Under the pieces are notes generated by a model, which saw nothing but the letters and a program-made list of their open reading frames with translations, did no database searches and had not been told where the DNA came from. Position numbers and translations under genes: made by a program. Below are positions 7,822 through 54,947 of a DNA stretch of 64,000 nucleotides, piece by piece. Source of the DNA: Acidiferrobacterales bacterium (lineage in GTDB: Bacteria > Pseudomonadota > Gammaproteobacteria > Arenicellales > Poriferihabitantaceae). Within the stretch, counting starts at the first letter, position 1. Every line of letters begins with the position of its first letter. The stretch is taken from assembly GCA_019633985.1 (NCBI GenBank), contig JAHQWE010000035.1:1-64000 (forward strand), written 5' to 3'.

Positions 7822-10089
7822 TTAAGCAGAATTGGTATCGAACTCTAGCGCCTTCTTTTCGTTTTTATCCTTGCCAACAGAAATCCGCACGGTGCCCCCT
7901 TTCGAAAGCTTGCCAAACAAAAGCTCGTCCGCGAGTTTTTGTTTGATCTCCTTTTGAATCACGCGCGCCATAGGCCTTGCGCCCATTGCCGGGTCGTACC
8001 CTTTTTCTGCGAGCCATTCAATGGCCTCATCATCGACTTCCAATGTGACATTTTTCTCTCCAAGCTGGTGATCCAGCTCGAGAATAAATTTCTTCACGAC
8101 ATGATGGATTGTGTCGGTGTTAAGGCCGTTGAATCGGACAATGTTATCAAGACGATTTCGGAACTCAGGAGTGAACGCCTTTTTGATCGCTTCCATATCG
8201 TCACTGGCGTTGTCCTGCATGACAAACCCCATTGATTCTCGCGCTGCGCGTTCCGCACCAGCATTGGTTGTCATCACAATAATGACATTTCGAAAATCTG
8301 ATTTTCGACCGTTATTATCTGTGAGACTTCCATAGTCCATCACCTGCAGCAGAATATTAAACAGGTCGGGGTGCGCTTTTTCAATTTCGTCAAACAACAG
8401 CACCGCATGCGGATGTTTGTTAATCGCTTCTGTCAACAATCCACCTTGATCAAATCCTACATAGCCAGGAGGTGCGCCGATCAATCTGGACACCGTATGT
8501 CGCTCCATATACTCAGACATGTCAAACCTAAGAAATTCAATGCCTAGGGTATTCGCCAGTTGCTTTGTTACTTCTGTTTTACCGACACCGGTTGGGCCAG
8601 AAAACAGCAGTGACGCAATCGGTTTTTCGGCACTACCTAGACCGGAACGCGCCATTTTTATCGACGAAGCAAGTGTACTAATCGCTTCATCCTGGCCAAA
8701 AACCACCATTTTCAAATCACGTTCGAGATTTTGTAGCGATTTAATATCCGACGCCGAAACATGTTTCGGAGGTATACGCGCAATATCGGAAATCATACTT
8801 TCAATTTCCTTTACACCAATCGTTTTCTTGCGTTTTTCGGCCGGCGTCAGACGGGTTTTCGCGCCTGCTTCGTCTATCACATCGATAGCCGTATCTGGAA
8901 GCTGGCGATCGCCTAAGTAGCGTGCAGAAAGTTCGACCGCACTCCGCAGTGCCGGCTGGGTATATTTCACGCCATGATGCTCTTCAAACCGAGTTTTCAA
9001 TCCACGCAAAATCTCTACTGCTTCTTCGATTGTTGGCTCAACAATATCGATTTTTTGGAATCGCCTTGAAAGAGCGCGATCTTTTTCAAAAATGCCGCGA
9101 TATTCCTGATAGGTAGTCGATCCTATGCATTTCAATTCCCCAGAAGCCAGCATCGGTTTCAGCAAATTCGATGCGTCCAGAGCACCACCCGATACCGCTC
9201 CCGCGCCGATAATGGTATGAATTTCATCTATGAAAAGTACCGCGTTATCTTGCTTGTCGAGCTCCTTCAACACCGCTTTGAGCCGTTGCTCAAAATCACC
9301 TCGGTATTTTGCTCCTGCGAGCAATGCCCCCATATCCAGCGAGTAGATTGTGCTCTCGGCTAAAACTTCGGGAACTTCCCGGTGATATATCCTTCTGGCC
9401 AATCCCTCCGCTAAAGCGGTTTTACCTACGCCGGCTTCTCCAACAAATAAAGGATTGTTTTTTCTTCTACGGCAGAGAATCTGAATCGTTCTTTCCAGTT
9501 CTTTTTGTCTGCCGATTAACGGATCGATCTTTCCTTGCTCCGCAAGCTGGTTCAGATTGATTGTGTATGCTTCGAGGGCGTCACCAGACTGATCGTATTC
9601 ACCTTCCTCATCAAATTCCTGCTCCTCTTCGGGCGCAGGCAAACGATCTCCTTCAGGGATTTTAGTAATTCCATGGGAGATATAGTTGACCACATCGTAT
9701 CGACTAATTTCCTGCTGACTCAAAAAATAAACCGCAAACGACTCTCTTTCGCTAAACACCGCGACCAGAACATTCGAACCTTTCACCACTTTTTTTCCAG
9801 AGCTCTGCACATGCATGATTGCCCGTTGCAGTACACGTTGGAAACCCAGGCCGGGTTGAGGCTCATCCTCTGATTCCTCACCCATCAGCGGCACTTCCGT
9901 CTCCAAATAATGCTGCAGAGACTTTTCAAGAGCTTCCAGGTTTCCCCCGCAAAGGCGGATAGTTTTTCGGGTTTCACTATCGTCGAGAAGCGCATAGAGC
10001 AAATGCTCTACAGTAATAATTTCGTGTCTGTGCGTTCGCGCATAGTTAACCGCGACACCCAGTGTGACTTCTAGTTCTTCAGATAGCAT
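7822..10089 (-). CDS. clpA: ATP-dependent Clp protease ATP-binding subunit ClpA
   Basis: AAA+ unfoldase that feeds substrates, including N-degron proteins delivered by ClpS, into the ClpP peptidase. At 755 residues it matches ClpA (758 in E. coli). The N-terminal Clp-N repeat domain starts EELEVTLGVAVNYARTHR. The first nucleotide-binding domain has Walker A GEAGVGKTA near residue 221 and Walker B LFIDEIHTI. The second has Walker A GPTGVGKTE near residue 498 and LLFDEIEKAHPD. There is no long middle coiled coil, which separates it from ClpB. clpS lies 77 bp upstream in the same direction. clpP is not in the window. Confidence 0.96.
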   Translation of the reverse strand: MLSEELEVTLGVAVNYARTHRHEIITVEHLLYALLDDSETRKTIRLCGGNLEALEKSLQHYLETEVPLMGEESEDEPQPGLGFQRVLQRAIMHVQSSGKKVVKGSNVLVAVFSERESFAVYFLSQQEISRYDVVNYISHGITKIPEGDRLPAPEEEQEFDEEGEYDQSGDALEAYTINLNQLAEQGKIDPLIGRQKELERTIQILCRRRKNNPLFVGEAGVGKTALAEGLARRIYHREVPEVLAESTIYSLDMGALLAGAKYRGDFEQRLKAVLKELDKQDNAVLFIDEIHTIIGAGAVSGGALDASNLLKPMLASGELKCIGSTTYQEYRGIFEKDRALSRRFQKIDIVEPTIEEAVEILRGLKTRFEEHHGVKYTQPALRSAVELSARYLGDRQLPDTAIDVIDEAGAKTRLTPAEKRKKTIGVKEIESMISDIARIPPKHVSASDIKSLQNLERDLKMVVFGQDEAISTLASSIKMARSGLGSAEKPIASLLFSGPTGVGKTEVTKQLANTLGIEFLRFDMSEYMERHTVSRLIGAPPGYVGFDQGGLLTEAINKHPHAVLLFDEIEKAHPDLFNILLQVMDYGSLTDNNGRKSDFRNVIIVMTTNAGAERAARESMGFVMQDNASDDMEAIKKAFTPEFRNRLDNIVRFNGLNTDTIHHVVKKFILELDHQLGEKNVTLEVDDEAIEWLAEKGYDPAMGARPMARVIQKEIKQKLADELLFGKLSKGGTVRISVGKDKNEKKALEFDTNSA

Positions 10090-10166
10090 TCTCTCAATCC
10101 CGAATTTCTGTTTTTATCAGGCAGTAATCAAACTATTACTACCCAACATCGCAAACCATAGTTTGC

Positions 10167-10493
10167 TCATGCGACATCCATACTACACTGGAGCGGGTGC
10201 TGATTCTCCGTTGCGCAGTCCATCACCAGGCGCACTTTCGTTTCGGCAATCTCGCGGGGAAACACGCCGCAAACCCCCACACCTTTGGTGTGCACATGGA
10301 TCATTATTTCCTCAGCATTAGGTCGCGTCATACTGAAGAAGTTCATCAACAACGACACCACAAACTCCATAGGTGTGTAATCATCGTTGTGAAGTAACAC
10401 TTTATACATCGGCGGCTTTTTGAGTTTGGGTTTGCTTTGCTCAACAATTAACCCGGTGCCACCATCATCAGGTAAGTTTTTTTTGTCAGCCAT
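10167..10493 (-). CDS. clpS: ClpS adaptor for N-degron substrates
   Basis: A 108-residue adaptor that binds N-terminal destabilising residues and the ClpA N-domain. The core motif [16 protein letters not shown] contains the substrate-pocket residues. It is followed by the conserved histidine helix ([14 protein letters not shown]) and [10 protein letters not shown] basic, flexible N-terminus precedes the fold, as in other ClpS. It sits 77 bp upstream of clpA and 36 bp downstream of an A-type Fe-S carrier gene, so the three may share a transcript. Confidence 0.95.
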
Positions 10494-10529
10494 TAAATCA
10501 CCTTCCTGCGTTCCAATACAGATCGGAAC

Positions 10530-10901
10530 CTAGACTGCCGCGCCGCCGCATCCACCACATGCACCGCTACCGCCTACTGCCTGGAACACGTTGTTAAACA
10601 CAAAAGAGGCGTTCATACCATCGTCAACGTAATCCACCTCTGCTCCTTCAAGAAATCCAAGAGCGATCGGATCAACCACCAATTTGAAGCCACTTTCGTC
10701 TGACATCACGCTGTCAATTTCTTCTGCCTTTTCAGCAAATGTCATTCCGTAATTCATACCCGAGCACCCTCCTCCAGACACATAGATTCGCACTGCCTCT
10801 ACCTCACCTTCTGTGTCTTTCACCAAGGTTGCAATTTTCGATTTGGCGCTCTCTGTTACTGCCAAATCATTGTCTTTGATAACCTGATTAAATCCGGTCA
10901 T
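10530..10901 (-). CDS. A-type iron-sulfur cluster carrier (IscA/ErpA/HesB family), variant cysteine tail
   Basis: A 123-residue HesB/IscA-fold protein that would carry a [2Fe-2S] or [4Fe-4S] cluster to apo-proteins. The first ligand cysteine is C46 in SGGGCSGMNYGM. The C-terminal pair is C115 and C118 in GACGGCGGAAV. The common family ending is C-x-C (CGCG), so this protein has one extra residue between the two cysteines and a glycine-rich tail. It resembles ErpA in length, but I give no symbol because the tail differs. clpS and clpA follow on the same strand. It starts at an ATG, and the ~310 bp upstream separate it from the divergent yggX. Confidence 0.82.
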   Translation of the reverse strand: MTGFNQVIKDNDLAVTESAKSKIATLVKDTEGEVEAVRIYVSGGGCSGMNYGMTFAEKAEEIDSVMSDESGFKLVVDPIALGFLEGAEVDYVDDGMNASFVFNNVFQAVGGSGACGGCGGAAV

Positions 10902-11214
10902 AGTTTATTCCTCTTTAATGCGGCCCGATCTTGACGGACCAAATTGGTAACTGTTCAAACAGCGAATGAATAATCGGTTGAAATTCGAACGCTATTTCGT
11001 TTGAAATTTCATGAAAAATAGCCATATTGAATCGGATGGCAACAATTCCACAATTTGAGTCAATCGCTTGGCCACTGGATATTATAATCCGGCACGCCCA
11101 GCGTAAACGAGGTCAGGGATACGAAGCACCTGAAACCCGCAGGAGTGTTTCCTTGACTGAGTGTTCATTTGTGGCCATTCTAACGATATTCAACCGGTCG
11201 AAAAAGGTTATTTT
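10902..11214. other. Intergenic region between divergent Fe-S carrier gene and yggX
   Basis: About 313 bp without a credible gene. It must hold promoters for both neighbours. A TATAAT hexamer occurs at 11083-11088 on the plus strand, but no good -35 lies at standard distance (TTGAGT is 22 bp away). A TTGACT at 11153-11158 also lacks a convincing -10. A ribosome-binding-like AAAAAGG precedes yggX. No binding site for a known iron or redox regulator is clear by eye. Confidence 0.5.
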
Positions 11215-11487
11215 ATGAGTAGAACCGTGCAATGTGCAGTACTTGGCGTAGAAGCCGAGGGTCTGGAGAAACCACCCTATCCTGGTGAGCTGGGACAGAA
11301 GATTTACGACCACATTTCTGCGGAGGGCTGGAATCAGTGGTTACAACGGTTGGTCATGATCATCAATGAGGAACAATTAAATTCCGCCGATTCAGGATGT
11401 CAGGAAAGGATTGAAAAACATATGCGCGGATTCTTGTTTAAAGAAGGCGATATGGGTGCAACTCCTTCAGGATTTCACCAACCCTAG
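11215..11487 (+). CDS. yggX: Fe(II)-trafficking / oxidative damage protection protein YggX
   Basis: A 90-residue cytosolic protein linked to iron handling and to protection of Fe-S enzymes from superoxide. It starts MSRTVQCAVLG and has the family motifs YPGELGQKIYDHIS, WNQWLQRLVMIINE and the MRGFLF helix. E. coli YggX has 91 residues. In this protein the reactive cysteine is C7. The frame is open further upstream, but the ATG at 11215 follows an AAGG ribosome-binding site and matches the family start. In many gammaproteobacteria it follows mutY; here it stands alone, divergent from an A-type Fe-S carrier with a related theme. Confidence 0.93.
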   Translation: MSRTVQCAVLGVEAEGLEKPPYPGELGQKIYDHISAEGWNQWLQRLVMIINEEQLNSADSGCQERIEKHMRGFLFKEGDMGATPSGFHQP

Positions 11488-35843: not shown

Positions 35844-38222
35844 ATGTTTGAACCCAGGCTCTCTGTTCGCCTTGCCCCGCTAATGGTCACTGTTTTACTG
35901 GCCGGGTGTGTCACCTTTGGTATCTCACAACTCGAAAACCAGTATGGCCCCGAAATTCCGCGGGACCGGCAGATCACCAGCGTAGAAAAGGGGCAGGTCG
36001 ATTACTGGAAAGAGGTCAAACCGGTGTTGGACAACCGTTGTGTGGTTTGTCACGGCTGCTATGACGCTCCATGTCAATTAAAGCTCACATCGCCGGAGGG
36101 AGTTTTCAGGGGCGCAAGTAAACAACGCATTTATCATCAAACCCGGATCAAAGCAGCACCAATGAGCCGCCTGCATGAGGATGCAAATCAAACTGCAGAA
36201 TGGAGGAAGCGCGGATTTTATCCAGTGGTGAATGAACGAACTCCGTCACTGGAAGCAAACCAAGAAGCTAGCTTGATGTATCAATTACTGGAGCTCAAGG
36301 AACGCCACCCACTGCCGGCAGAACCGCTGATTGATGAATCGGAATTCACCTTATCACTTGGGCGCGAGGAAAGTTGTCCGGCTGGAGAGGAGTTTGAGAC
36401 ATACCAAACGAAGCACCGATTTTGGGGAATGCCATATGCGCTCCCCGGTCTGCCAGAAAACGAACAGCACATTATCAAAAAGTGGCTGGAACAAGGTGCT
36501 GGTTATACGTCGAGAAAACCGCTTGAGGGGCGATTCCAAAAGCAGATTGAGGAGTGGGAACAGCTTCTTAATGGAAATTCTCTAAAGGCGCAGTTGTCCA
36601 GCCGCTATATCTATGAACATCTATTTCTCGGACATCTTTACTTTAGCGATATTTCCGACACGCAATTTTTCAAACTGGTTCGCTCCAGCACACCGCCTGG
36701 TAAGCCTATCGACATCATCGCGACACGAAGACCGTATTCGGATCCTGGGGTAGAAAGGGTGTACTACCGCATTACTCCTGAGCTGGAAACGATTGTGGCG
36801 AAATCACATTTACCTTATGCACTTAACAGCGAAAGAAAGGCGCAATGGGAATCGCTTTTCTATCGTGCCAACTTTGAGGTCGCGCGCCTTCCGGGGTACG
36901 ACACCACCCAGTCGGCAAACCCATTCGCCACTTTCAAGCAATTACCGATGCGCTCTCGCTATAAGTTTATGTTAGATGAAGCGCAGTTCACAATTGGAAA
37001 TTACATCCGCGGATCGGTCTGTCGAGGACAGGTTGCGTTGAATGTAATTCGGGACCATTTCTGGGTGTTCTTCGTCGATCCAGACATCAAACAAAATGAC
37101 GCGATTTCAGAAGCTGTCGACATCGATCTGGATGCATTCGAATTACCCGCGGCGTCCGGCAATATTTATCTGCCAATCACCACTTGGTTGAAATATGCTA
37201 TCAAGCAACGTGAAGCGATTCGTGGACGGAATCGATTTATGCGTGAACAGTTCGGCAGCGACAACCCTGTCACTTTGGATTTGGTCTGGGATGGGGAGGG
37301 AACCAACCCCAATGCGGCGCTCACGATTTACCGACATCTCAACAATGCGTCTGTTGAGAAAGGTTTGCTTGGAGATGCACCTCAAACTGCCTGGTTAATT
37401 AGCTACCCACTCCTGGAGCGGATACACTATTTACTCGTTGCCGGATACGATGTGTATGGTAACTATGGTCATCAGCTGATTACCCGACTCTATATGGATT
37501 TTTTAAGAATTGATGGAGAAATGACGTTTCTTGGTTTGCTGCCCGGTGAAAACCGAATCGCAGAATGGAGAAACTGGTATCGGGATAACAATAAGCAAAT
37601 GATCCATATGATGACCATGATGACCGAGGAAACTCTGGATAACCAAATGGAGCCGTCAATGATATATCGGACGTCAAACCCCAAGAAAGAGCTATTCGAG
37701 ATGCTGGAAAGGCGGCTGGATAGCGCGCTTCCGAAAAGCCGATTGCTGTCCGATATTCAAGATCGGTCACTTGCCGGGCTACTCGATCGATTGTCCAATT
37801 TTTCAGGTTCAAGAACCCGCCACCTTCCTGAGGTCAGTTATATCCGATTTAGAGGTCAAGCTGAGCAGCCGCCGGTAGATATCACGCTGCTTAGAAATAA
37901 TGCGCATCTGAGTATTACCTCTCTCTTCCGAGAATCGAAAACTCTAGCGCCAGAGGAAAATACCGTATCTGTATTGTCAGGGATGGTTGGGGCATATCCC
38001 AATGCGCTGTTTGAAGTCAGATTTGACGACAGAGAGGAATTTATATCAGACGTTTTGCGACTCTCTTCAGACGAAGAGTATCGAGACCTCAAAACAAAGT
38101 TTGGAATACGGCGAACCGACCCAAATTTCTGGCGTTACAGTGATGCACTGCATTTCACACTGCGCCAGAACAATCCGGTTGAATTCGGGATGCTCGATTA
38201 TAGTCGGCTTGAAAATCGATAG
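35844..38222 (+). CDS. cti: Fatty acid cis/trans isomerase
   Basis: Periplasmic haem enzyme that turns cis- into trans-unsaturated membrane fatty acids, a fast response to solvents and heat in Pseudomonas and Vibrio. The 792-residue protein has a signal region ending in a lipobox-like LLAGC (C22) and one c-type haem motif C66-VVCH70, followed by more cysteines (GCYDAPC). Length and the haem site near the N-terminus match the Cti family. Pseudomonas Cti is periplasmic with a cleaved signal; this one may instead be a lipoprotein. The RND efflux operon begins 162 bp downstream on the same strand. Confidence 0.92.
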   Translation: MFEPRLSVRLAPLMVTVLLAGCVTFGISQLENQYGPEIPRDRQITSVEKGQVDYWKEVKPVLDNRCVVCHGCYDAPCQLKLTSPEGVFRGASKQRIYHQTRIKAAPMSRLHEDANQTAEWRKRGFYPVVNERTPSLEANQEASLMYQLLELKERHPLPAEPLIDESEFTLSLGREESCPAGEEFETYQTKHRFWGMPYALPGLPENEQHIIKKWLEQGAGYTSRKPLEGRFQKQIEEWEQLLNGNSLKAQLSSRYIYEHLFLGHLYFSDISDTQFFKLVRSSTPPGKPIDIIATRRPYSDPGVERVYYRITPELETIVAKSHLPYALNSERKAQWESLFYRANFEVARLPGYDTTQSANPFATFKQLPMRSRYKFMLDEAQFTIGNYIRGSVCRGQVALNVIRDHFWVFFVDPDIKQNDAISEAVDIDLDAFELPAASGNIYLPITTWLKYAIKQREAIRGRNRFMREQFGSDNPVTLDLVWDGEGTNPNAALTIYRHLNNASVEKGLLGDAPQTAWLISYPLLERIHYLLVAGYDVYGNYGHQLITRLYMDFLRIDGEMTFLGLLPGENRIAEWRNWYRDNNKQMIHMMTMMTEETLDNQMEPSMIYRTSNPKKELFEMLERRLDSALPKSRLLSDIQDRSLAGLLDRLSNFSGSRTRHLPEVSYIRFRGQAEQPPVDITLLRNNAHLSITSLFRESKTLAPEENTVSVLSGMVGAYPNALFEVRFDDREEFISDVLRLSSDEEYRDLKTKFGIRRTDPNFWRYSDALHFTLRQNNPVEFGMLDYSRLENR

Positions 38223-38383: not shown

Positions 38384-40789
38384 ATGCAACCACCGTTTAC
38401 AAATGTAACCCCCGGGCCGCTCCACTGCATTCGACATCGCGGAATGTTACTCGGCGTGATTCTTTTCATTGGACTAATAGGATCACCGGCCGTTGTCTAT
38501 GCCGAAAAAGTGGTTTCAATTGGAATTTTGAGCGATGGTCCAATGCCAGAATTCGACCGCCTGGAATCACTCTTTACGGAAGAAATAAAATCACTGACGG
38601 AAGGGGAGTTTGATATTCGATTTAATCCTGATAAACGCTTCGATGGTGGATGGTCACTCGATGACATCGATGCAGCGCTCGTCAGACTCCAAAATGACAG
38701 TGAGGTTGATATGGTACTGGCATTGGGTTTCGTCTCCAGCCTGGTTGCCTCTCGCTCCAAATCGCTCCGCAAACCCACTTTTGCACCCATGGTTTTGGAT
38801 GCCAATCTATTGGATCTTCCCAGAGAAGGCGATACCAGCGGCGAGCGCTATCTCAACTACCTGACTGAAGAAATACTGTTCGCCGAGGACATTGGCACAT
38901 TTCGCGAAATTGTCAATTTCGAAACCCTTGGCGTTATTGTGGACCAAGCGATCTTCGAATCTGTACCTGACCTTGCCGCACGTGGCGGAGATTGGGCCCA
39001 GTCGTTGGGTGTGGCGCTGGTTTATATCCCAGTTGCCGACCCTAAAACCGATATTGTCGGAGAAATCCCGAGTGAAGTAGAAGCGGTGATTGTCACCGCA
39101 CTTCCCCGGCTCAATGTAAATCAACGGCGTCAATTGATTGAGAATTTAAACAACGCAAAATTACCGAGTTACAGTGTCATTGGCACCACCCCAGTGAGAC
39201 AGGGCATGCTGGCGGCAACTGCGCCAGATTCAGATTGGTTACGGCTTGCAAGAAAGAATGCGCTCAATATTCAATCCGTATTATTAGGAGAAAACGCTGG
39301 TGACCAGCAAGTTTCGTTCAGACCCAAAAGACAGTTGACCATAAACATGCAAACCGCCAGAAAGCTTGGCATTTCTCCCAGGTTTGATATTTTAAGTACG
39401 GCGGTATTGTTGAACGAAGAACCTGAAAATCAGGATTTGACCTGGACGTTATCCGGTGTCGCAAAAACCGCGTTACTAGAAAATCTAGAGGTTCAGGCAG
39501 GCAGTGCTGGGCTGAAATCAAACGCCGAAGATGTACAACAAGCCAGATCATTACTCAAACCTCAATTTAATACCTCTCTCACTACTGTGCAGCTTGATAG
39601 CGACAACGGAGGCGTAGTCGCCGGTCAAAGCGCTGAGAGAACGACAACGGCTAACGTGGAATTCAGTCAGATCATCTACTCTGAGCCCGCACTGGCCGCG
39701 ATTAAAATACAGCATTATCAGCAAAGGGCACGCGCTGCCGCACAAAGAGAATTAGAGTTGGACATCGTCCAATCCGCGACGGTAAGCTTTCTGACTATCC
39801 TCAAAGCACAGGCACAGCTCAATATTCAAAGAAGAAGCTTAAACCTGGCACGCACTAATTTAGATCTGGCGCAAGACCGCGTACGACTAGGTAGTTCTAA
39901 CTCTTCAGACATTTTTCGGTGGGAAAGCGAAGTTGCCCTCACCCGCCAACAGTTACTTGACGCAAGAAGTTCCCTTGAACAATCGAAAGATGCACTAAAT
40001 AAAATTCTTGGCCGACCGCTAAATGAACGATTTAGTACAGCGCCAGCCTCATTGTCTGATCCATCGCTTCTTGTCAGCCGGCAAGATTTAGTCGAAGTGA
40101 TTGACAATCAAGATTCCTTTAATCGCATGGGGAAAATCTTTCTTGAAAACGCGCTGGAGAACTCCCCGGAAATCGTACAGCTTAGAGCGCTGATAGCCGG
40201 TCAGGAGCGAGAGTTGAAATCGGCACAAAGACAATTTACCCGCCCGGAAGTCAGCTTGAGTGGCCAAATTGGTAATACGTTGAACGAAAGCGATGCCATT
40301 ATGAATTCTCAAGAGGGAGACACCGACTGGCAAATAGCAATCAACGTCACATTGCCTCTTTACCAGGGCGGTAAAAGATTCTCGCAGATTCGACAGGATC
40401 AATATTCGATTGATCAGTCATTGCTGCAACTCGCTTCACTGACTGACGGTGTCGAGCAATCGGTTCGCGCCAACCTTCATGCGGTTCAGGCTAGCTTTCC
40501 CTCTATTGAGTTAGCGCAGATCGCCGCCGATGCCGCGCGTAAAAACCTTGAATTAATTCAGGACAATTACAACCGCGGTAACGAATCCATCATCACGTTG
40601 CTGGATGCCAGAGACGCATCCCTGGATGCCGATCTCGGCGCAACCAATGCGACCTATGATTTTTTGATCGATTTGATGAACCTGCAGAGATCAACAGGTG
40701 AATTTGATTTTTTCCTCGAGCCTCAAGCGCTCAACGAATACGCCGAGAGAATTAAGCAAGCGGTGTCCAGCCCGGAATATGCGCAATAA
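38384..40789 (+). CDS. TolC-like outer membrane channel fused to an N-terminal substrate-binding-protein-like domain
   Basis: An 801-residue exported protein with two parts. After a signal peptide (hydrophobic core near MLLGVILFIGLIGS, ending VVYA) comes a ~300-residue domain (about 43-335). It resembles periplasmic binding proteins of the ABC_sub_bind/TrpX type: an opening strand VVSIGILSDG, VDMVLALGFVSSLVA, GVIVDQAIFES and EAVIVTALPRL. From about 352 onward is an outer membrane efflux protein: LTWTLSGVAKTALLENLEVQ, NFNTSLTT-like strands, coiled-coil helices and the repeat block near INVTLPLYQGGKRFSQ. Ordinary TolC proteins have about 450-500 residues and no such domain. The RND adaptor and pump genes follow at 6 and 9 bp. 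An internal ATG at 38444 is an alternative start. Confidence 0.85.
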   Translation: MQPPFTNVTPGPLHCIRHRGMLLGVILFIGLIGSPAVVYAEKVVSIGILSDGPMPEFDRLESLFTEEIKSLTEGEFDIRFNPDKRFDGGWSLDDIDAALVRLQNDSEVDMVLALGFVSSLVASRSKSLRKPTFAPMVLDANLLDLPREGDTSGERYLNYLTEEILFAEDIGTFREIVNFETLGVIVDQAIFESVPDLAARGGDWAQSLGVALVYIPVADPKTDIVGEIPSEVEAVIVTALPRLNVNQRRQLIENLNNAKLPSYSVIGTTPVRQGMLAATAPDSDWLRLARKNALNIQSVLLGENAGDQQVSFRPKRQLTINMQTARKLGISPRFDILSTAVLLNEEPENQDLTWTLSGVAKTALLENLEVQAGSAGLKSNAEDVQQARSLLKPQFNTSLTTVQLDSDNGGVVAGQSAERTTTANVEFSQIIYSEPALAAIKIQHYQQRARAAAQRELELDIVQSATVSFLTILKAQAQLNIQRRSLNLARTNLDLAQDRVRLGSSNSSDIFRWESEVALTRQQLLDARSSLEQSKDALNKILGRPLNERFSTAPASLSDPSLLVSRQDLVEVIDNQDSFNRMGKIFLENALENSPEIVQLRALIAGQERELKSAQRQFTRPEVSLSGQIGNTLNESDAIMNSQEGDTDWQIAINVTLPLYQGGKRFSQIRQDQYSIDQSLLQLASLTDGVEQSVRANLHAVQASFPSIELAQIAADAARKNLELIQDNYNRGNESIITLLDARDASLDADLGATNATYDFLIDLMNLQRSTGEFDFFLEPQALNEYAERIKQAVSSPEYAQ

Positions 40790-40795
40790 CCCACT

Positions 40796-41875
40796 ATGAT
40801 TTACTCCACCAAATACCTACCTTTGTTTTTTATTTCCGTTTTCCTGGTTGGCTGTGAAGAACCCAAGATAATAGAAGAAGCTCCGATGCGCTCTGTTCGC
40901 TACGTCGAAATCGTTTCTGCCGACGCTTCAAGAATTCGGACTTTTACCGGAGTGTCGCAATCAACTCAAGAAACCAGCCTGAGTTTTAAGGTGGGCGGTA
41001 CGATTACAGAGTTATCAGTATCTGTGGGTGAGAAACTGAGTAAGGGGCAAAAAGTAGCGCGCTTGGATAGCTCAACCTATAGTCTGCAACTGCAGCAATC
41101 TCAGGCTGACCTGGCACGAGCTCAGGCCGAGCAACGTAACGCCGCTTCCGCTTACGAACGCGTCAAAGGCCTGTATGAAAATCGAAGCGCTTCCAAAAAC
41201 GAACTAGATACCGCTCGTGCTGGCGCTGAGTCGGCGCGAGCCCAGGTCGCAGCCAGTTCCAGATCGGTGGAACTGGCTAGATTGAACATGGCGTACACCA
41301 CGCTCTCGGCAAAAGAAGACTGCACCGTAGTTTCGACCGCGGTCAATGAAGGAGAAAATATTTCAGCAGGTCAGCAAGTCGCCGTAGTGAGTTGTGGCGA
41401 AGGGTTAGAAGTCAATGTTTCCGTCCCGGAAAGTCTTATTGGATCGATTCAGGAAGGCCTTTCTGTCTCCACACGATTTGCCGCGACCAATGGTCAAGCC
41501 TACGCGGGCACCGTTACTGAGGTAGGCATCGCTGCCACCGGCACCACATTTCCTGTCACCATCAATCTGGAAGACCCTCAGAACTTGAGATCAGGAATGG
41601 CCGCCCAGGTAGACTTTCAATTTGACACGGTTGCTTCATTGCCCGTCGTACCATCAGCTGCGGTCTCAGAGGACCAGGGAGGTCGATTTATCTATTTATT
41701 GGAACCCAATGACGACGACCAAACCGGGACGGTGAAGCGCCAAAATATCAAAATAGGTGAGTTAAACAGTCGTGGCCTGGAAGTCTCGGAAGGTGTCTCA
41801 GCAGGAGATCTGGTGATCACAGCCGGCGTTTCGAAAATTCGCGACGGTCTGATTGTTAAAGTTACCCCTCAATAA
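40796..41875 (+). CDS. RND efflux periplasmic adaptor (membrane fusion lipoprotein)
   Basis: A 359-residue adaptor that would link the inner-membrane RND pump to the TolC-like channel. It has a lipoprotein signal with lipobox LVGC (C20). The lipoyl/barrel-sandwich halves are ETSLSFKVGGTITELSVSVGEKL and NEGENISAGQQVAVV, on either side of a short alpha-hairpin (~residues 100-165). Then come beta-barrel and membrane-proximal domains ending in GDLVITAGVSKIRDG. It starts 6 bp after the channel gene and ends 9 bp before the pump gene, so the three are one operon. Confidence 0.93.
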   Translation: MIYSTKYLPLFFISVFLVGCEEPKIIEEAPMRSVRYVEIVSADASRIRTFTGVSQSTQETSLSFKVGGTITELSVSVGEKLSKGQKVARLDSSTYSLQLQQSQADLARAQAEQRNAASAYERVKGLYENRSASKNELDTARAGAESARAQVAASSRSVELARLNMAYTTLSAKEDCTVVSTAVNEGENISAGQQVAVVSCGEGLEVNVSVPESLIGSIQEGLSVSTRFAATNGQAYAGTVTEVGIAATGTTFPVTINLEDPQNLRSGMAAQVDFQFDTVASLPVVPSAAVSEDQGGRFIYLLEPNDDDQTGTVKRQNIKIGELNSRGLEVSEGVSAGDLVITAGVSKIRDGLIVKVTPQ

Positions 41876-41884
41876 TATCGATTG

Positions 41885-44800
41885 ATGAATATCACTCGAA
41901 CAGCGGTCAATAATCGCGTCACTGTTTATGCATTGGTGGTTTTAATTTCGCTAGCGGGCATTCTTTCGTACTTCGGGCTGCCGAAACAGCAAGATCCGGG
42001 ATTCACCATTCGGGCCGCAGTGGTTACTACCCAGTTTCCTGGGGCAAGTCCTCAGAGAGTGGAACAGCTGGTCACAGATAAAATTGAGCAGGCCATTCGG
42101 GAAATGCCCGAGCTTGATAATGTCACGAGTGAATCCAAACCTGGTTTTTCTTTCGTCACTGCGAACTTCAAAGAAAGCTATACCGAGATGCAACCTATTT
42201 TCGACAAGCTCAGAAGAAAGGTTGATGCAGTGAAGGGATTACCTTCGGGAATCAACGGACCGAATATTAACGATGAGTACGGTGATGTTTTTGGCAGTGT
42301 TCTAGCCCTTACCGCGGAAGGGTTTAGTTTCGCCGAATCTAAAGAGATCGCAGAAGAAATACGAGATCAGTTACTCGATCTCGAAAACGTGGCGAAAGTG
42401 AGCCTGCAGGGAATCCAGGAAGAAGAAATATACGTCGAATATGATCTTGCCCAGCTCCGCCAGCTTGGCATTTCGCCGCAACAGCTCACGCAAACCCTCG
42501 CGGGTGTCAACATCATTCGTGGTGGCGGGGAAATCGTCACTGGTACTGAAAGAATCACGCTGGAGCCCTCTGGAAACTTCGAAACCCTGAACGACCTGAA
42601 GAGGACAGTTATTCAAATCCCTGGAAGCAATCGCATCACCTATCTGGAAGATATTGCCAATGTCTATCGGGACTACGTGGATCCAGTTTCCAGCGTCGCG
42701 CATTACAATGGAGAAAGTGCTGTGGTTTTGGGCATCTCATTGCGCGAAGGTGGCAATATTCTTGATCTGGGTCATGAATTGGCGGTGGCTTTGCCAAAAA
42801 TAGTCGCGGCTTACCCCCATGGCTTCGATCTCAATCCTGTCTATCTTGAAGCTACGGTGGTTGACAATGGCGTCAATAACTTCCTCTCCAATTTGTTGCA
42901 AGCCATCGTCATTGTCATTGTGGTTGTTCTGATTTTTCTTGGACTACGTGTTGGCATGATTGTTGGTACGCTGGTTCCCTGCACGATTTTTGCCTCGCTG
43001 ATGGTCATGAGTTTTCTCGGAATCACCATCAATCAAATCTCACTGGCTGCGCTTATTATCTCTCTCGGTCTACTGGTAGATAATGCAATTGTGATCGCAG
43101 AATCCATTCTGGTCAGGCGACAACAGGGCGAACAGGCCGCGGATGCGGCAATCGCCGCCGGCAGAGAGATGGCAATTCCATTGCTGACCTCTTCACTAAC
43201 GACATCCGCTGCGTTTTTACCCATTTTCCTCGCCGAATCCGCTGTGGGGGAATACACTGCCGATATTTTTAAAGTTGTGTCTATTGCGCTACTTTCCTCC
43301 TGGATGCTGGCGCTCGCATTTATTCCTGTGATTTCAATTGGTCTGATTAAAATCAGAAAAAACCAGAAAGCTGAAAATCACGATTCGATAATGTATCGCG
43401 TATACACCTCAATACTGCGAACTTCAGTCAAAAACCGCACCTTATTCCTGATATTAACTGGCGCCATTTTCTACAGCGCAATTTGGGCACTACAGTTTGT
43501 ACCCAGTGTCTTTATTCCACCGAAAACGGATCCAATCATTCAGGGAACGATGTCCCTTCCGAAAGGGGTGTCCATTGAGACCACCCGCGACGTTGTCAGC
43601 GACATAGAATCCTTTATCGCTGATCAGCTTTTGATCACAGAAAATGACGCACCTAACGAACAGAAAACAGTGGTGAACTGGGCTTCCTGGATTGGAGAAA
43701 GTGCGCCTCGATACACACTAGGGCTGGATCCCGGCTCAGCAGAACCTGGTTCTGTTGCCATGCTCCTCAACACCAAAAACTATTTGGATATCCCGGAGAC
43801 TGTCCGCCGAATACAAGACTACGCCCGTACCGCGCGCCCGGATCTCGATGTGCAATTGAGAAAGATTGAGAATGGCGTACCGATCGCCTATCCGGTTGTC
43901 GTTAGAGTAAGCGGGGATTCGCTGGAAACTCTCTATCAAATCATCGAGCCAATCACCAGCAAGCTCCAGCAAACCCCAGGAGTACTCTCGGTGAATAACG
44001 ACTTGGGAGTGAGAACCAAAAAGCTCCTCATTAATGTGGATCAGGAGCGCGCACGCCTTGCCGGTGTGACCAATGAGGATATAGCGATTTCGCTCCAGGC
44101 TGGTCTATCCGGCATTGAGCTGACACAGTTTCGTGAAGGCGATACGCTGATACCAGTGACACTCCGCTCGGTAGCCTCTGATCGACAAGATATCGGCAAA
44201 CTCGAAGGGCTCACGATCTATTCTCAAAGCAGCAGTCAAAGTGTGCCGCTACGACAGGTTGCTGAACTTGAAATCGCGTGGCAACCCGCCATCATAAAAC
44301 GCCGGGATCGATCCAGAACTATCGCTGTTCAGGCGCAACTGTTGCCTGGCTATACGGCAACAGAAATCAATAACGAATTTATACCTTGGCTAAACGGTAT
44401 CGTGGCGGAATGGCCAGAGGGCTATGAATTTGAGCTCGGAGGTGAATCTGAAACTTCCGGGGACGCGAATGCGGCAATCGCGGAAAAGTTGCCCATCGCG
44501 GGGATGCTCATTCTGTTGTTATTGATCATGCAGTTCAACAGCATTCGAAAGCCCGCGATGATTTTGCTCACCATTCCCCTTGGTTTAGTAGGCGTGGCAT
44601 ACGGTCTACTCATTGCCAAAAGCGTATTCGGCTTTTTCACCATCCTTGGAATTATTTCACTTTCTGGAATTGTCATTAACAATGCCATCGTATTACTGGA
44701 TCGCATCGATATTGAAATTGAACAGAACGGTTTGACACCACAGGACGCAGTCTTCTCCGCCTGTAAACAGCGTCTACGCCCTATTCTATTGACGACCGCT

Positions 44801-44968
44801 ACAACAATCGGCGGCATGCTCCCGCTTTGGATTAGTCATGACCCTATGTTTGAAACCATGGCGGTTACGATCATGTTTGGTCTCTTGTTTGCAACGCTCC
44901 TGACGCTCTTATTTATTCCCGTGCTCTACTCCATTTTCTTTCGGGTTAATTTCTCGCAAACCGGTTAA
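41885..44968 (+). CDS. RND efflux pump, inner-membrane permease
   Basis: A 1027-residue RND transporter with twelve membrane helices in two repeats and two large periplasmic loops. It resembles the AcrB/MexF-type superfamily in general plan (MNITRTAVNNRVTVY start, QFPGASPQRVEQLVTDKIE). In helix 4 the proton-relay site reads GLLVDNAIVIAES: one aspartate is kept and the second is asparagine. In helix 10 the usual lysine region reads SGIVINNAIVLLDR. This variant is common in RND subfamilies less studied than AcrB. Substrates cannot be read from sequence; the cti neighbour suggests solvents or lipophiles. The ATG at 41885 is preferred over a preceding TTG. Confidence 0.93.
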   Translation: MNITRTAVNNRVTVYALVVLISLAGILSYFGLPKQQDPGFTIRAAVVTTQFPGASPQRVEQLVTDKIEQAIREMPELDNVTSESKPGFSFVTANFKESYTEMQPIFDKLRRKVDAVKGLPSGINGPNINDEYGDVFGSVLALTAEGFSFAESKEIAEEIRDQLLDLENVAKVSLQGIQEEEIYVEYDLAQLRQLGISPQQLTQTLAGVNIIRGGGEIVTGTERITLEPSGNFETLNDLKRTVIQIPGSNRITYLEDIANVYRDYVDPVSSVAHYNGESAVVLGISLREGGNILDLGHELAVALPKIVAAYPHGFDLNPVYLEATVVDNGVNNFLSNLLQAIVIVIVVVLIFLGLRVGMIVGTLVPCTIFASLMVMSFLGITINQISLAALIISLGLLVDNAIVIAESILVRRQQGEQAADAAIAAGREMAIPLLTSSLTTSAAFLPIFLAESAVGEYTADIFKVVSIALLSSWMLALAFIPVISIGLIKIRKNQKAENHDSIMYRVYTSILRTSVKNRTLFLILTGAIFYSAIWALQFVPSVFIPPKTDPIIQGTMSLPKGVSIETTRDVVSDIESFIADQLLITENDAPNEQKTVVNWASWIGESAPRYTLGLDPGSAEPGSVAMLLNTKNYLDIPETVRRIQDYARTARPDLDVQLRKIENGVPIAYPVVVRVSGDSLETLYQIIEPITSKLQQTPGVLSVNNDLGVRTKKLLINVDQERARLAGVTNEDIAISLQAGLSGIELTQFREGDTLIPVTLRSVASDRQDIGKLEGLTIYSQSSSQSVPLRQVAELEIAWQPAIIKRRDRSRTIAVQAQLLPGYTATEINNEFIPWLNGIVAEWPEGYEFELGGESETSGDANAAIAEKLPIAGMLILLLLIMQFNSIRKPAMILLTIPLGLVGVAYGLLIAKSVFGFFTILGIISLSGIVINNAIVLLDRIDIEIEQNGLTPQDAVFSACKQRLRPILLTTATTIGGMLPLWISHDPMFETMAVTIMFGLLFATLLTLLFIPVLYSIFFRVNFSQTG

Positions 44969-44994: not shown

Positions 44995-45027
44995 AAAGCC
45001 GCAGTAGCGCTAAGCTACTGCGGCTTT
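44995..45027 (+). terminator. Terminator of the RND efflux operon
   Basis: A perfect 14-bp stem (AAAGCCGCAGTAGC / GCTACTGCGGCTTT) with a five-base loop starts 26 bp after the pump stop codon. A short T-run ends the stem. A second, looser hairpin (TCTCCGCA / TGCGGAGA, 45034-45069) follows, between this operon and the convergent DUF4399 gene. Confidence 0.85.
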
Positions 45028-51206: not shown

Positions 51207-52604
51207 TCAACAGCGCCAAGTTTCAGTTTTGTAGCGAAACACTTTGACATCCTGTTTCCAGTAGTCCTCGGCGTATCCCGCTTTGCGTTTAAGCTGACGA
51301 AAAAAAACTGTGGGATCCGGGATTTTGCTCCATACCGCGGGCAAAAAGGTTCCTCGTTGATTACCCGATATAAATATCACGCCATCAACAAATGGGTGAA
51401 GTTGACTGACTATCTCTTCTTCGCTGTTCCCAGTTACTTCACTCCACGGGCTCAAAACAGAAATTTCAATTTGAATTTGTTGGAATTCATCCGCGGTTAA
51501 CGGTTTGAAGCGCGCATCCTGAAACGCAGACTTGAACGCATTATGACTTACGTTCACACAAAGAGGCTGTTGGCTATTCAGTGACCCAAGACACCCACGT
51601 AGCTTACCTTCAGTCGTTTGCAACGTTACAAACGAGGCACCCGGGGAATCCAGAATAGCATCTGAATACTCGCGCCGTTGAACATCCATCGGTTGCCCTG
51701 ACTTCAGTCCCGCCGCGATGGAAGCGCGGGCAATCTGACCAAGCTCTTTCCGCTGCGCATGGTTAACACGGTTCACCGGTTCGAGGAATGCGAAACTACC
51801 GTATCCCACCACCTGGTCTTTTCGTTGCGCGGTGTCTCCAGAATTTCTCACATCCAGCTGCACCGCTTTCAGTTTTTTCTTTTGTGACAGTGATAGCAGC
51901 CCCCGGAGTCCAACCTGGCCACATGCATGTTCGTAGGTAATCGGATTGGGATTCAGGTTCAAAATTGCACGACTCGTGATTGCATCGATTTCCGTTGCGT
52001 CGTCATAAGCTTTGAAGTGACTAAGATCAGTGCTAATTAAAATCAGAGTTTCCTCTCCGCCCCATAAAAATGACAGACATTCTGCCACTTGATCAAGATC
52101 CGTGGATCCAACCACCGCTGGAACTAGACTGAACGTGCCGATGGCTTTTTGCAAAAACGGCAGCTGTGTTTCGAGCGAGTGCTCGTACTGGTGTGCTTTA
52201 TTGTTAATTCCAGCGAACCTAAATCTGCTCACACATTGTCTAACCGTGTGCACGTCCACAGGAATTCGACCCAAAGGCGTCTCAAAAAAATCTGCACCAC
52301 TAAACCCTAACCCCTGCATTCGCACCTTATGCGAGGGACCCAGTAAAACGACACGGCTAATCCGCTGCGCATTTGGTAACACGCAGGCATATGCGGATGC
52401 CGCAATAGATCCTGAAAATCGATAACCCGCATGGGGTACAACCAGTGCTTTTGGCATTTGATCTACGCTACCTGGCGTCCTGGCCATTGCTTCTCTCAAA
52501 AACTGGTCGACTGATTGCGACAGTTCATCGGCCACAGCCGAGAAAAACTGGCCTGCGACAGCGGCAGGACGCAGGGTCTTGGAAATTTTTACCGATTGCT
52601 CCAT
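51207..52604 (-). CDS. AmmeMemoRadiSam proteins B and A fused (Memo-AMMECR1)
   Basis: A 465-residue two-domain protein. Residues ~10-275 are a Memo domain (LigB-dioxygenase-like fold): VVPHAGYRFSG, LLGPSHKV, EHSLETQLPFL and STDLSHF provide the conserved metal-type histidines. Residues ~285-460 are an AMMECR1 domain with the family signature KLRGCLGSL. In many genomes these are separate genes (AmmeMemoRadiSam system proteins B and A). The radical SAM member is encoded at 54948-56045. The gene follows chrA by 31 bp on the same strand, so chrB, chrA and this gene may be one operon. The biochemical role is not settled. Confidence 0.9.
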   Translation of the reverse strand: MEQSVKISKTLRPAAVAGQFFSAVADELSQSVDQFLREAMARTPGSVDQMPKALVVPHAGYRFSGSIAASAYACVLPNAQRISRVVLLGPSHKVRMQGLGFSGADFFETPLGRIPVDVHTVRQCVSRFRFAGINNKAHQYEHSLETQLPFLQKAIGTFSLVPAVVGSTDLDQVAECLSFLWGGEETLILISTDLSHFKAYDDATEIDAITSRAILNLNPNPITYEHACGQVGLRGLLSLSQKKKLKAVQLDVRNSGDTAQRKDQVVGYGSFAFLEPVNRVNHAQRKELGQIARASIAAGLKSGQPMDVQRREYSDAILDSPGASFVTLQTTEGKLRGCLGSLNSQQPLCVNVSHNAFKSAFQDARFKPLTADEFQQIQIEISVLSPWSEVTGNSEEEIVSQLHPFVDGVIFISGNQRGTFLPAVWSKIPDPTVFFRQLKRKAGYAEDYWKQDVKVFRYKTETWRC

Positions 52605-52635: not shown

Positions 52636-53955
52636 TCATACCAGGAAGCTCTGCCCTAGAATCGCACCCGCTGCTGACACAAGTAGAACGGAGATTATGG
52701 ACCAGTGTCGCAACAAGAGTAGCACCGCACTAATCGCAGCCAGAGCAAACACCAGCGGTTCAAAAGTGGTAATTGCCGGTTTCCATAAGGTTACCGCTCC
52801 CCACTTCTCCAAATTGACTTCTCGAAAAAGAACATGCAGAGCAAACCAGATCGATAAATTTAATATCACCCCTACTACTGCTGCTGTAATGGCGCGTAGC
52901 GCGTCACGTAGTCTCGGCTGATTCCCAATCCAGTTAATGTACGGCGCGCCGGCGAATATCCAGAGAAAACAGGGCACAAAAGTAACCCATAAACTCATGA
53001 CCGCCGCGGCCACACCCAATCCAAGGCCCGCTTCGCGGAAACCCGCAATAAACCCCACAAATTCATTGACCAAAATTAGGGGACCTGGCGTAGTTTCAGC
53101 CAATCCGAGACCATCCATCATTTCTCCCGCAGTTAACCAACCAAACTGATCCACTACTGCTTGCCCCATATACGCGAGCACTGCATAGGCTCCACCAAAA
53201 GTGACCACCGCAAGCTTTGAGAAGAAAATACCGACTTCCGCCAAAAACGGCTGCGGTAACAAGGTGTTTACCAATACCAGTGGGATCGCCCAGATCACCA
53301 GCCACACCAACACCGTACGCCATAATTTTGCCCACGATTGGTCTACAGAATCGATATCTGTTTGCGACTGCGTTTCGCGCTGGCCAAAGAAAAACCCAAA
53401 TAATCCGGCTCCCAGAACAATCAAGGGAAATGGCAGGGATAAAAAGAAAATACCGATAAATGAAAAAGCAGCCAGCAACCAGTAAATCGGTTTTCCTAAA
53501 GCACGTTTAGAAATCTTGAGTAAGGCCTCCAGAACAATAACCAGAACTGCAGCCTTAATTCCAAGAAAGATCGTGGTGACCAACGGAATATCGCCGAGCA
53601 GCATATAAGTAGCGGCTAAAATCAACACGACGATAGCACCGGGCAACACAAACAATAGTCCGGCGATCAATCCGCCGATCGTTCCGTGTAGACGCCAGCC
53701 TCCATAGGTTGCGAGCTGCATGGCTTCTGGACCGGGCAACAACATGCAAAAACTTAACGCGTTGAGATACGTTTGCTCATCCAGCCAGCGCTTTTCCTCT
53801 ACCAGAAAGCGATGCATTAATGCCATCTGTGCGGCTGGCCCACCAAAGGACAGTAGACCTATCTTCAACCAGACTCTGGTTGCTTCTCCCAGGGTCGGTG
53901 TAGAAACAGGATTTGAATACCCCGCGGAATCTGTCGAGTTTGATCGAGACGTCAT
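52636..53955 (-). CDS. chrA: Chromate efflux transporter ChrA
   Basis: A 439-residue membrane protein of the CHR superfamily, long (two-domain) type. Each half has the CHR pattern: FGGPAAQMALMHRFLVEEKRWL with LLPGPEAMQLATYGGW in the first, and TFGGAYAVLAYMGQ with TTPGPLILVNEFVGF in the second. ChrA exports chromate and lowers its uptake. chrB is 6 bp upstream, the usual pairing. The Memo-AMMECR1 gene follows at 31 bp. Confidence 0.93.
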   Translation of the reverse strand: MTSRSNSTDSAGYSNPVSTPTLGEATRVWLKIGLLSFGGPAAQMALMHRFLVEEKRWLDEQTYLNALSFCMLLPGPEAMQLATYGGWRLHGTIGGLIAGLLFVLPGAIVVLILAATYMLLGDIPLVTTIFLGIKAAVLVIVLEALLKISKRALGKPIYWLLAAFSFIGIFFLSLPFPLIVLGAGLFGFFFGQRETQSQTDIDSVDQSWAKLWRTVLVWLVIWAIPLVLVNTLLPQPFLAEVGIFFSKLAVVTFGGAYAVLAYMGQAVVDQFGWLTAGEMMDGLGLAETTPGPLILVNEFVGFIAGFREAGLGLGVAAAVMSLWVTFVPCFLWIFAGAPYINWIGNQPRLRDALRAITAAVVGVILNLSIWFALHVLFREVNLEKWGAVTLWKPAITTFEPLVFALAAISAVLLLLRHWSIISVLLVSAAGAILGQSFLV

Positions 53956-53961
53956 CTACAG

Positions 53962-54774
53962 TCACCCTTTACCATGTGGCCAGACATGCGATTCATCTGT
54001 CGCATCACGACACCATCTGTACAGCGCGTCGTATATCCCGATACTTGCCTCCAGCTGCGTCAGGTCGTCGCGGTACATCCGCGACAAACCCAGTGATATA
54101 GAGAGTAAACCAGCGGATTGCGGGGTGAGTTGTAGTTTCCCCGTATCGGCACCTCGGACAATTTCCGCAAGCTGATTGAGGGGTGGTGTAAACAGCTGAA
54201 ACTCTTCCAGCATCGTGTCAAATGTGCATCCTTCTCCCCGATGGCTCCAGAACTGATCTTCCATATCAAAGGGCGTCGCATCAAATTTTTCTGCCACGGC
54301 CACGACCTCAGATGGAGCAACAAAAAGGAATCGCGCCTGCGGATCGACAAACCTGCGAATGAGCCAGGGACAAGCGATACGATCAATCTTCGGTCTCTGA
54401 CGTGTCACCCATACCGTTTGGCCTCGAGAGTTTTTGTCCGGGATCGCATCAATCGGAACCAAAGGGAGGCCCGCATCACGCCAATCAAAGTGACCTCCCG
54501 CCAAACACTCTGTTTGAATGCCGTGGTACCGTAAGACTGCTGCCGCGCCCTGACTGATTTTCTTACCCTTCTGACAGTAGACCACCACTTTTTGATCAAC
54601 AAGCTCTGGAGCAAGTGTGTCCATATCGTTAAACGCATGTCGCCGTGCAGTGGGAATCAGCTGTGGATCGGCGTGAATATCCTCGGCAATACGCACATCG
54701 ATAATAGTCGGACTATTGGGGGTACCAATTAGTCGGCTCAATTGAGAGGAAGTGATTTCAGTTGGTGATGGCAT
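53962..54774 (-). CDS. chrB: Chromate resistance protein ChrB with N-terminal rhodanese domain
   Basis: A 270-residue protein. A rhodanese domain (residues ~10-105; IDVRIAEDIHADP, then VVYCQKGKKIS with the candidate active cysteine near residue 67) is followed by a ChrB C-terminal domain (WVTRQRPKIDRIACPWLIRRFVD, then FDMEDQFWSHRGEGCTFD). ChrB proteins sense or regulate chromate resistance in several proteobacteria. Divergent from the radical SAM gene across 173 bp, it heads the chrB-chrA-AmmeMemo unit. Regulation by chromate is inferred from the family. Confidence 0.9.
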   Translation of the reverse strand: MPSPTEITSSQLSRLIGTPNSPTIIDVRIAEDIHADPQLIPTARRHAFNDMDTLAPELVDQKVVVYCQKGKKISQGAAAVLRYHGIQTECLAGGHFDWRDAGLPLVPIDAIPDKNSRGQTVWVTRQRPKIDRIACPWLIRRFVDPQARFLFVAPSEVVAVAEKFDATPFDMEDQFWSHRGEGCTFDTMLEEFQLFTPPLNQLAEIVRGADTGKLQLTPQSAGLLSISLGLSRMYRDDLTQLEASIGIYDALYRWCRDATDESHVWPHGKG

Positions 54775-54947
54775 AGCGCATCCTCCTTTTTCTAAAAGAT
54801 TGAGAAAGTTAATGTTGGATGCGAAACTTGAGCTTACGCCTCACGGGGTGCTCGCGACCCCATGGGTCAATATTGCCCCATTGCTTGATTCACTGTCAAT
54901 CTGGCATCGGAACACATCGACTAGTATCTCTGAAAGGTTGCGCTAAT

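Follow-up and report, generated by a model that had tools for sequence, protein, structure and literature searches.

What would a domain built like an uptake-system binding protein do in the exit duct of an efflux pump? Accounts of tripartite pumps usually treat the duct as passive, and the question is raised by an open reading frame at positions 38384-40789 (+) of the 64,000-nucleotide stretch of an Acidiferrobacterales contig analysed here (the window). The frame starts with ATG, is free of internal stops and encodes a protein of 801 aa in two parts: a class I binding-protein domain of the ABC_sub_bind/TrpX type at the N-terminus and, after it, an intact outer membrane factor (OMF) of the TolC family. 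At about 800 aa the fused protein carries some 300 N-terminal residues more than TolC/OprM-type OMFs, a family of 472 ± 30 aa whose members are rarely fused to other domains (PMC4827864). An earlier note on this DNA had proposed a binding-protein-like N-terminus joined to a complete OMF in a pump operon, and this is borne out by sequence profiles, structure prediction and wide conservation. Residues 1-40 (38384-38503, +) form a predicted signal peptide, a hydrophobic stretch ending VVYA/E without a lipobox; an alternative start at the ATG of residue 21 (38444) is possible, and the starts of homologues vary in their upstream distance.

The binding-protein domain (residues 41-347, 38504-39424, +) is weakly visible in the single sequence, where residues 225-339 give a sub-threshold match to PF04392 (E 0.0087; 15.8 bits, where the cut-off is 25.9) and the N-terminal part a weak match to TrpX (3e-4). 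The curated PF04392 score is reached by some homologues (e.g. 35.2 bits in G009), and 21 of the 56 proteins in our family alignment (the window protein and 55 others) match this family individually at E 0.1 or better. A profile of the N-domain constructed from these 56 proteins reaches the PDB sequences of the aromatic-amino-acid binding proteins 3LKV (7.7e-11), 6HNI (1e-4) and 3LFT (1.9e-4). The AlphaFold2 model of residues 40-347, for which 54 of the 56 alignment rows served as input (two rows from annotated plasmid records were left out), has a pLDDT of 93.5, and its top Foldseek matches are 3LFT (7e-16) and 3LKV (2e-15). VIA-align superimposes about 290 of the 308 modelled residues with Z-scores of 25.6 (3LKV), 25.0 (3LFT) and 24.3 (6HNI), while hhalign relates the fused domain to standalone ABC_sub_bind proteins of related genomes with a probability of 99.3 (E 2e-20). 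Profile, model and structure alignment together assign to the domain a two-lobe class I fold homologous to 3LKV and 3LFT, so that the first assignment of residues ~40-340 to the ABC_sub_bind/TrpX type was right, and the N-domain of the duct descends from a binding protein of this group.

The remainder of the protein (residues 356-775, 39449-40708, +) had been taken for a complete outer membrane efflux protein, and this too holds. Residues 355-774 match PF02321 in two stretches corresponding to the two repeats (3.8e-38; 131.6 bits, well above the curated cut-off of 22), with a further match to TIGR01844 (3.3e-34) below the cut-off of that model. The full-length model (pLDDT 90.1) contains two OMF repeats, each made of two barrel strands and long helices, as in the TolC/OprM family (PF02321; PDB 1EK9, 1WP1), whose genes likewise lie beside those for adaptor and pump. 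In a Foldseek search with the whole model, one half matches TolC, OprM, CusC and VceC and the other 3LFT and 3LKV; none of the listed matches is a solved chain spanning both halves. The junction between the two parts, from P332 to L356 (39377-39451, +), is near-constant in length, with a gap of 23 residues in 51 of the 56 proteins and of 22-24 in the others. Pairwise identities of the N-domain (mean 37%) and of the OMF (mean 41%) correlate at 0.946. Junction length and correlated identities are more in keeping with a single fixed unit than with a binding protein on a free tether; the binding domain looks docked on the duct.

Six base pairs downstream of the fused gene lies a periplasmic adaptor (membrane fusion protein) gene (40796-41875, +; TIGR01730 RND_mfp, 215 bits, cut-off 94.9), followed by an RND permease gene (PF00873 ACR_tran, 1.2e-162) that extends to 44968 (+) from either a TTG at 41882 or an ATG at 41885. 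The adaptor and pump genes had been placed at distances of 6 and 9 bp, which is what we see, the second gap shrinking to 6 bp with the TTG start. OMF, adaptor and RND genes are thus adjacent and co-directed over 38384-44968 (+), forming a tripartite RND efflux operon. Just past the RND gene, a consensus scan called a terminator-like inverted repeat of 14 pairs on the minus strand (44995-45027), a type of site about as common in shuffled sequence. Upstream of the fusion, at a distance of 161 bp and on the same strand, is a gene for a fatty acid cis/trans isomerase (cti, 35844-38222, +; PF06934, 4.7e-249). A link between the two was rejected, as cti was not seen beside other fusions in the neighbourhoods examined.

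The earlier note had also asked whether the fusion always sits beside an RND pump, which it does not. We compared gene neighbourhoods at 66 non-redundant loci, the window among them; a few are partial copies at contig ends. RND genes lie next to the fused gene in 37 and genes of an RbbA-type ABC exporter in 23, which rules out an RND-only linkage. Three further loci have an adaptor alone, two are without a neighbour on the contig stretch examined, and one is without an adjacent adaptor. In this last locus (L056), a Gemmatimonadota fusion at 8911-11397 (+) has no adjacent co-directed adaptor or pump gene; close by, the opposite strand carries an RND gene. The identity of the RbbA component was checked in Sulfuricurvum, where it exceeds the NF033858 equivalog cut-off of 1050 with 1514.8 bits. 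Exporters of this YhiI-RbbA-YhhJ type partner a homologous fused duct in 23 loci, whereas the window operon carries an RND pump. Gene order is mostly fusion-adaptor-RND in the RND-linked loci (adaptor-RND-fusion in Desulfosarcina) and mostly adaptor-RbbA-permease-fusion in the ABC-linked ones (fusion-adaptor-RbbA-permease in Sulfuricurvum and Nitrospira). A tree of the fused proteins, computed with a quick method that leaves long branches such as L023 unsure, requires two changes of the pump label, both of them forced by well-supported branches. According to this tree, pump type was exchanged at least twice during the evolution of the fused duct. Duct and pump can therefore be inherited separately, and the duct has carried its large, conserved extra domain through these exchanges.

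Tyr, Phe and Trp are bound by the proteins CD0873, VC_1101 and SP1069 (PMC6816091). We compared the residues of the N-domain with the ligand contacts of Streptococcus suis TrpX, which include T108, T129, D152 and N233 (PMC9382623). None of these positions is kept in the fused-family alignments, although the placement of N233 and D152 shifts by a few columns between aligners; none of the 56 fused proteins has Thr at the T108 position, against 16 of 20 standalone relatives. Since the published ligand residues have been replaced, TrpX-type binding of an aromatic amino acid is rejected at the residue level, and such a ligand is unlikely for the fused domain. Conserved residues that are particular to the fused family include D51, R242, E67, K130, Y159 and the helix R287-N295. 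The domain thus shares its two-lobe class I fold (Z 24-26) and sequence homology with ABC_sub_bind/TrpX proteins (PF04392; 3LKV, 3LFT, 6HNI) and differs from them in its fusion to an OMF, in the loss of the aromatic-ligand residues and in this signature. It differs also in its gene setting, with an adaptor and an exporter as neighbours and no importer permease or ATPase genes beside it.

The reading that we prefer, and for which we consider the case evenly balanced, is that the N-domain acts as a fixed collar that stabilises the duct or positions it for adaptor docking, serving RND and ABC pumps alike. The equatorial domain of TolC and OprM is a belt at mid-height of the duct, to which the first short helix belongs (PMC8277102), and in E. 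coli the protein YbjP bridges TolC protomers at the equator as a 3:3 collar (PMC13095208). By analogy with TolC/OprM topology, the junction of the fused protein would lead into the short first OMF helix within the mid-periplasmic equatorial domain. Because the junction is short and this helix lies in the belt, three N-domains would encircle the duct trimer at the height of YbjP. These three binding-protein-derived domains at the equator would no longer bind an aromatic amino acid in the manner of TrpX and may instead help duct assembly or adaptor docking. Like YbjP on TolC, the N-domain would be an extra component at the equatorial domain in a 3:3 ratio, its position being deduced from topology rather than taken from a trimer model; whereas YbjP is a separate lipoprotein, the collar would here be part of the duct protein and derived from a binding protein. 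The fused duct would be a natural single-chain counterpart to YbjP on TolC, with YbjP as the precedent for a 3:3 collar at the TolC equator. A collar is further consistent with the loss of the TrpX ligand positions and with fusion-specific conservation outside the cleft loops, at E67, K130 and the helix R287-N295. Such a collar, which the earlier note had named as its alternative, also fits the near-constant junction with its correlated identities, and the pump exchanges, somewhat better than a ligand sensor does. In a plasmid version from Cetobacterium (L023, 4009-6189, +), 726 aa long and situated in an RND operon, the second lobe is incomplete and the end of the binding domain that joins the OMF is kept, in agreement with a structural role, albeit in a single long-branch sequence. 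What speaks against a collar is that the full two-lobe fold with its hinge has been retained and that conservation extends to D51 and R242, whose loops are deduced to face the cleft, as would be expected if a different ligand were bound.

The same two features carry the next reading, a ligand-responsive exit duct, which we hold to be possible but the less probable course. Here the cleft would still work with a changed ligand, and lobe motion transmitted through the junction to the equatorial domain would favour duct opening or adaptor docking. The model of the complete fold resembles the closed form with bound ligand, 6HNI (Z 24.3), more than the open form, 6HNJ (Z 20.3). D51 is found in 54 of the 56 proteins, at a position where Arg prevails in standalone relatives, and R242 is found in 44. 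Conservation of the cleft, with the facing loops deduced from secondary structure and not from coordinates, points the other way for the family as a whole: cleft-facing loops score 0.384 against 0.452 for the opposite loops, in a test of low power that cannot separate a lost from a changed ligand. In standalone binding proteins, the control that reveals this lack of power, the values are 0.455 and 0.476. Among ABC-linked members the cleft loops are slightly more conserved (0.644 against 0.625, a difference that is not significant). The proposal of the earlier note that a ligand-binding sensor could gate export is not borne out by these results, with the known ligand residues replaced and the cleft no better conserved than the rest by this low-power measure. 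The fuller version, in which three built-in equatorial domains sense a periplasmic molecule and set duct opening or docking with both RND and ABC pumps, we regard as rather unlikely. If true, a ligand-controlled duct would add to tripartite efflux a control point of which the literature searched gives no description, and the fused protein makes the ligand response of an exit duct a testable question.

A third reading, substrate capture, has the N-domain bind the exported compound in the periplasm and hand it over to the pump complex, much as the metallochaperone CusF is thought to hand substrate to the Cus pump. That the fold is that of an uptake-system binding protein and that the gene stays beside exporters would suit this role. 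On the deduced geometry, however, the domain would sit at the duct wall, away from the pump entry sites, and a single lineage works with pumps of two unrelated classes, which makes capture improbable.

The possibility that two genes were joined by a frameshift or a chimeric assembly, which could be suspected from the fragmented window assembly (150 contigs, 88% complete) and from broken copies elsewhere, is ruled out for all practical purposes by the same junction over both domains in 55 homologues, named strains among them, and by the one-frame design of the 17 full-length homologues found in relatives. The 55 homologues come from about ten phyla and align end to end with the window protein, both parts in one frame. 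The 17 were found in 194 relatives, and 59 loci were retrieved from a public genome collection. Of 369 genomes sampled evenly across the class, 24 match the N-domain profile at 1e-15, 20 of these in open frames of at least 770 aa; the four other sampled genomes of the window's genus gave no match. Fusions occur in Gammaproteobacteria, Acidobacteriota, Gemmatimonadota, Desulfobacterota, Nitrospinota, Nitrospira, Krumholzibacteria and Opitutaceae (Verrucomicrobiota); a plasmid collection extends the range to Sulfuricurvum kujiense (Campylobacterota) and, at greater distance, to Cetobacterium (Fusobacteriota). As most records are metagenome assemblies, single phylum names may be wrong; the named strains are Sulfuricurvum kujiense DSM 16994, Desulfosarcina alkanivorans PL12 and Porticoccus sp. 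W117. Locus L078, where the OMF begins after a masked stretch with no binding domain found upstream, was excluded from all claims on fusions.

Three broken copies read as decayed or misassembled rather than as separate-gene relatives. One (L072) has a frame change and is missing the junction. In a genome of the window genome's own family (L019, G005), a relic of the binding half is broken across frames with no OMF half downstream, its nearest stretch being 74% identical to the window protein, which suggests loss of the system in that family. In the third (L150, 5577-6821, -; G321), a 414-aa frame encodes a binding domain of the fused type and borders directly on the tail of an RND gene, which looks like the result of a deletion or misassembly that removed OMF, adaptor and most of the pump. 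An intact pair of separate, adjacent binding-domain and OMF genes was not met among the loci examined. The nearest solo relatives found for the fused domain include standalone ABC_sub_bind proteins about 400 aa long, extended by roughly 100 residues at the N-terminus (L147, L148 and L149 in G371, G390 and G284, respectively), two of them in tandem in G371; no OMF was detected in their neighbourhoods.

We found no paper on the binding-domain-OMF architecture in the open-access literature, subscription papers and preprints being outside the scope of the search. The Sulfuricurvum protein is annotated as 'ABC transporter substrate binding protein', a name that hides its OMF half.

Elsewhere in the window, a chrB-a RNA (54772-54866, -; RF03078, 62.1 bits) lies directly upstream of a ChrB_C gene (53962-54774), which together with a chromate transporter gene (52636-53955) is the expected setting of this RNA. 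A further frame at 51207-52604 (-) combines a Memo-like domain with an AMMECR1 domain.
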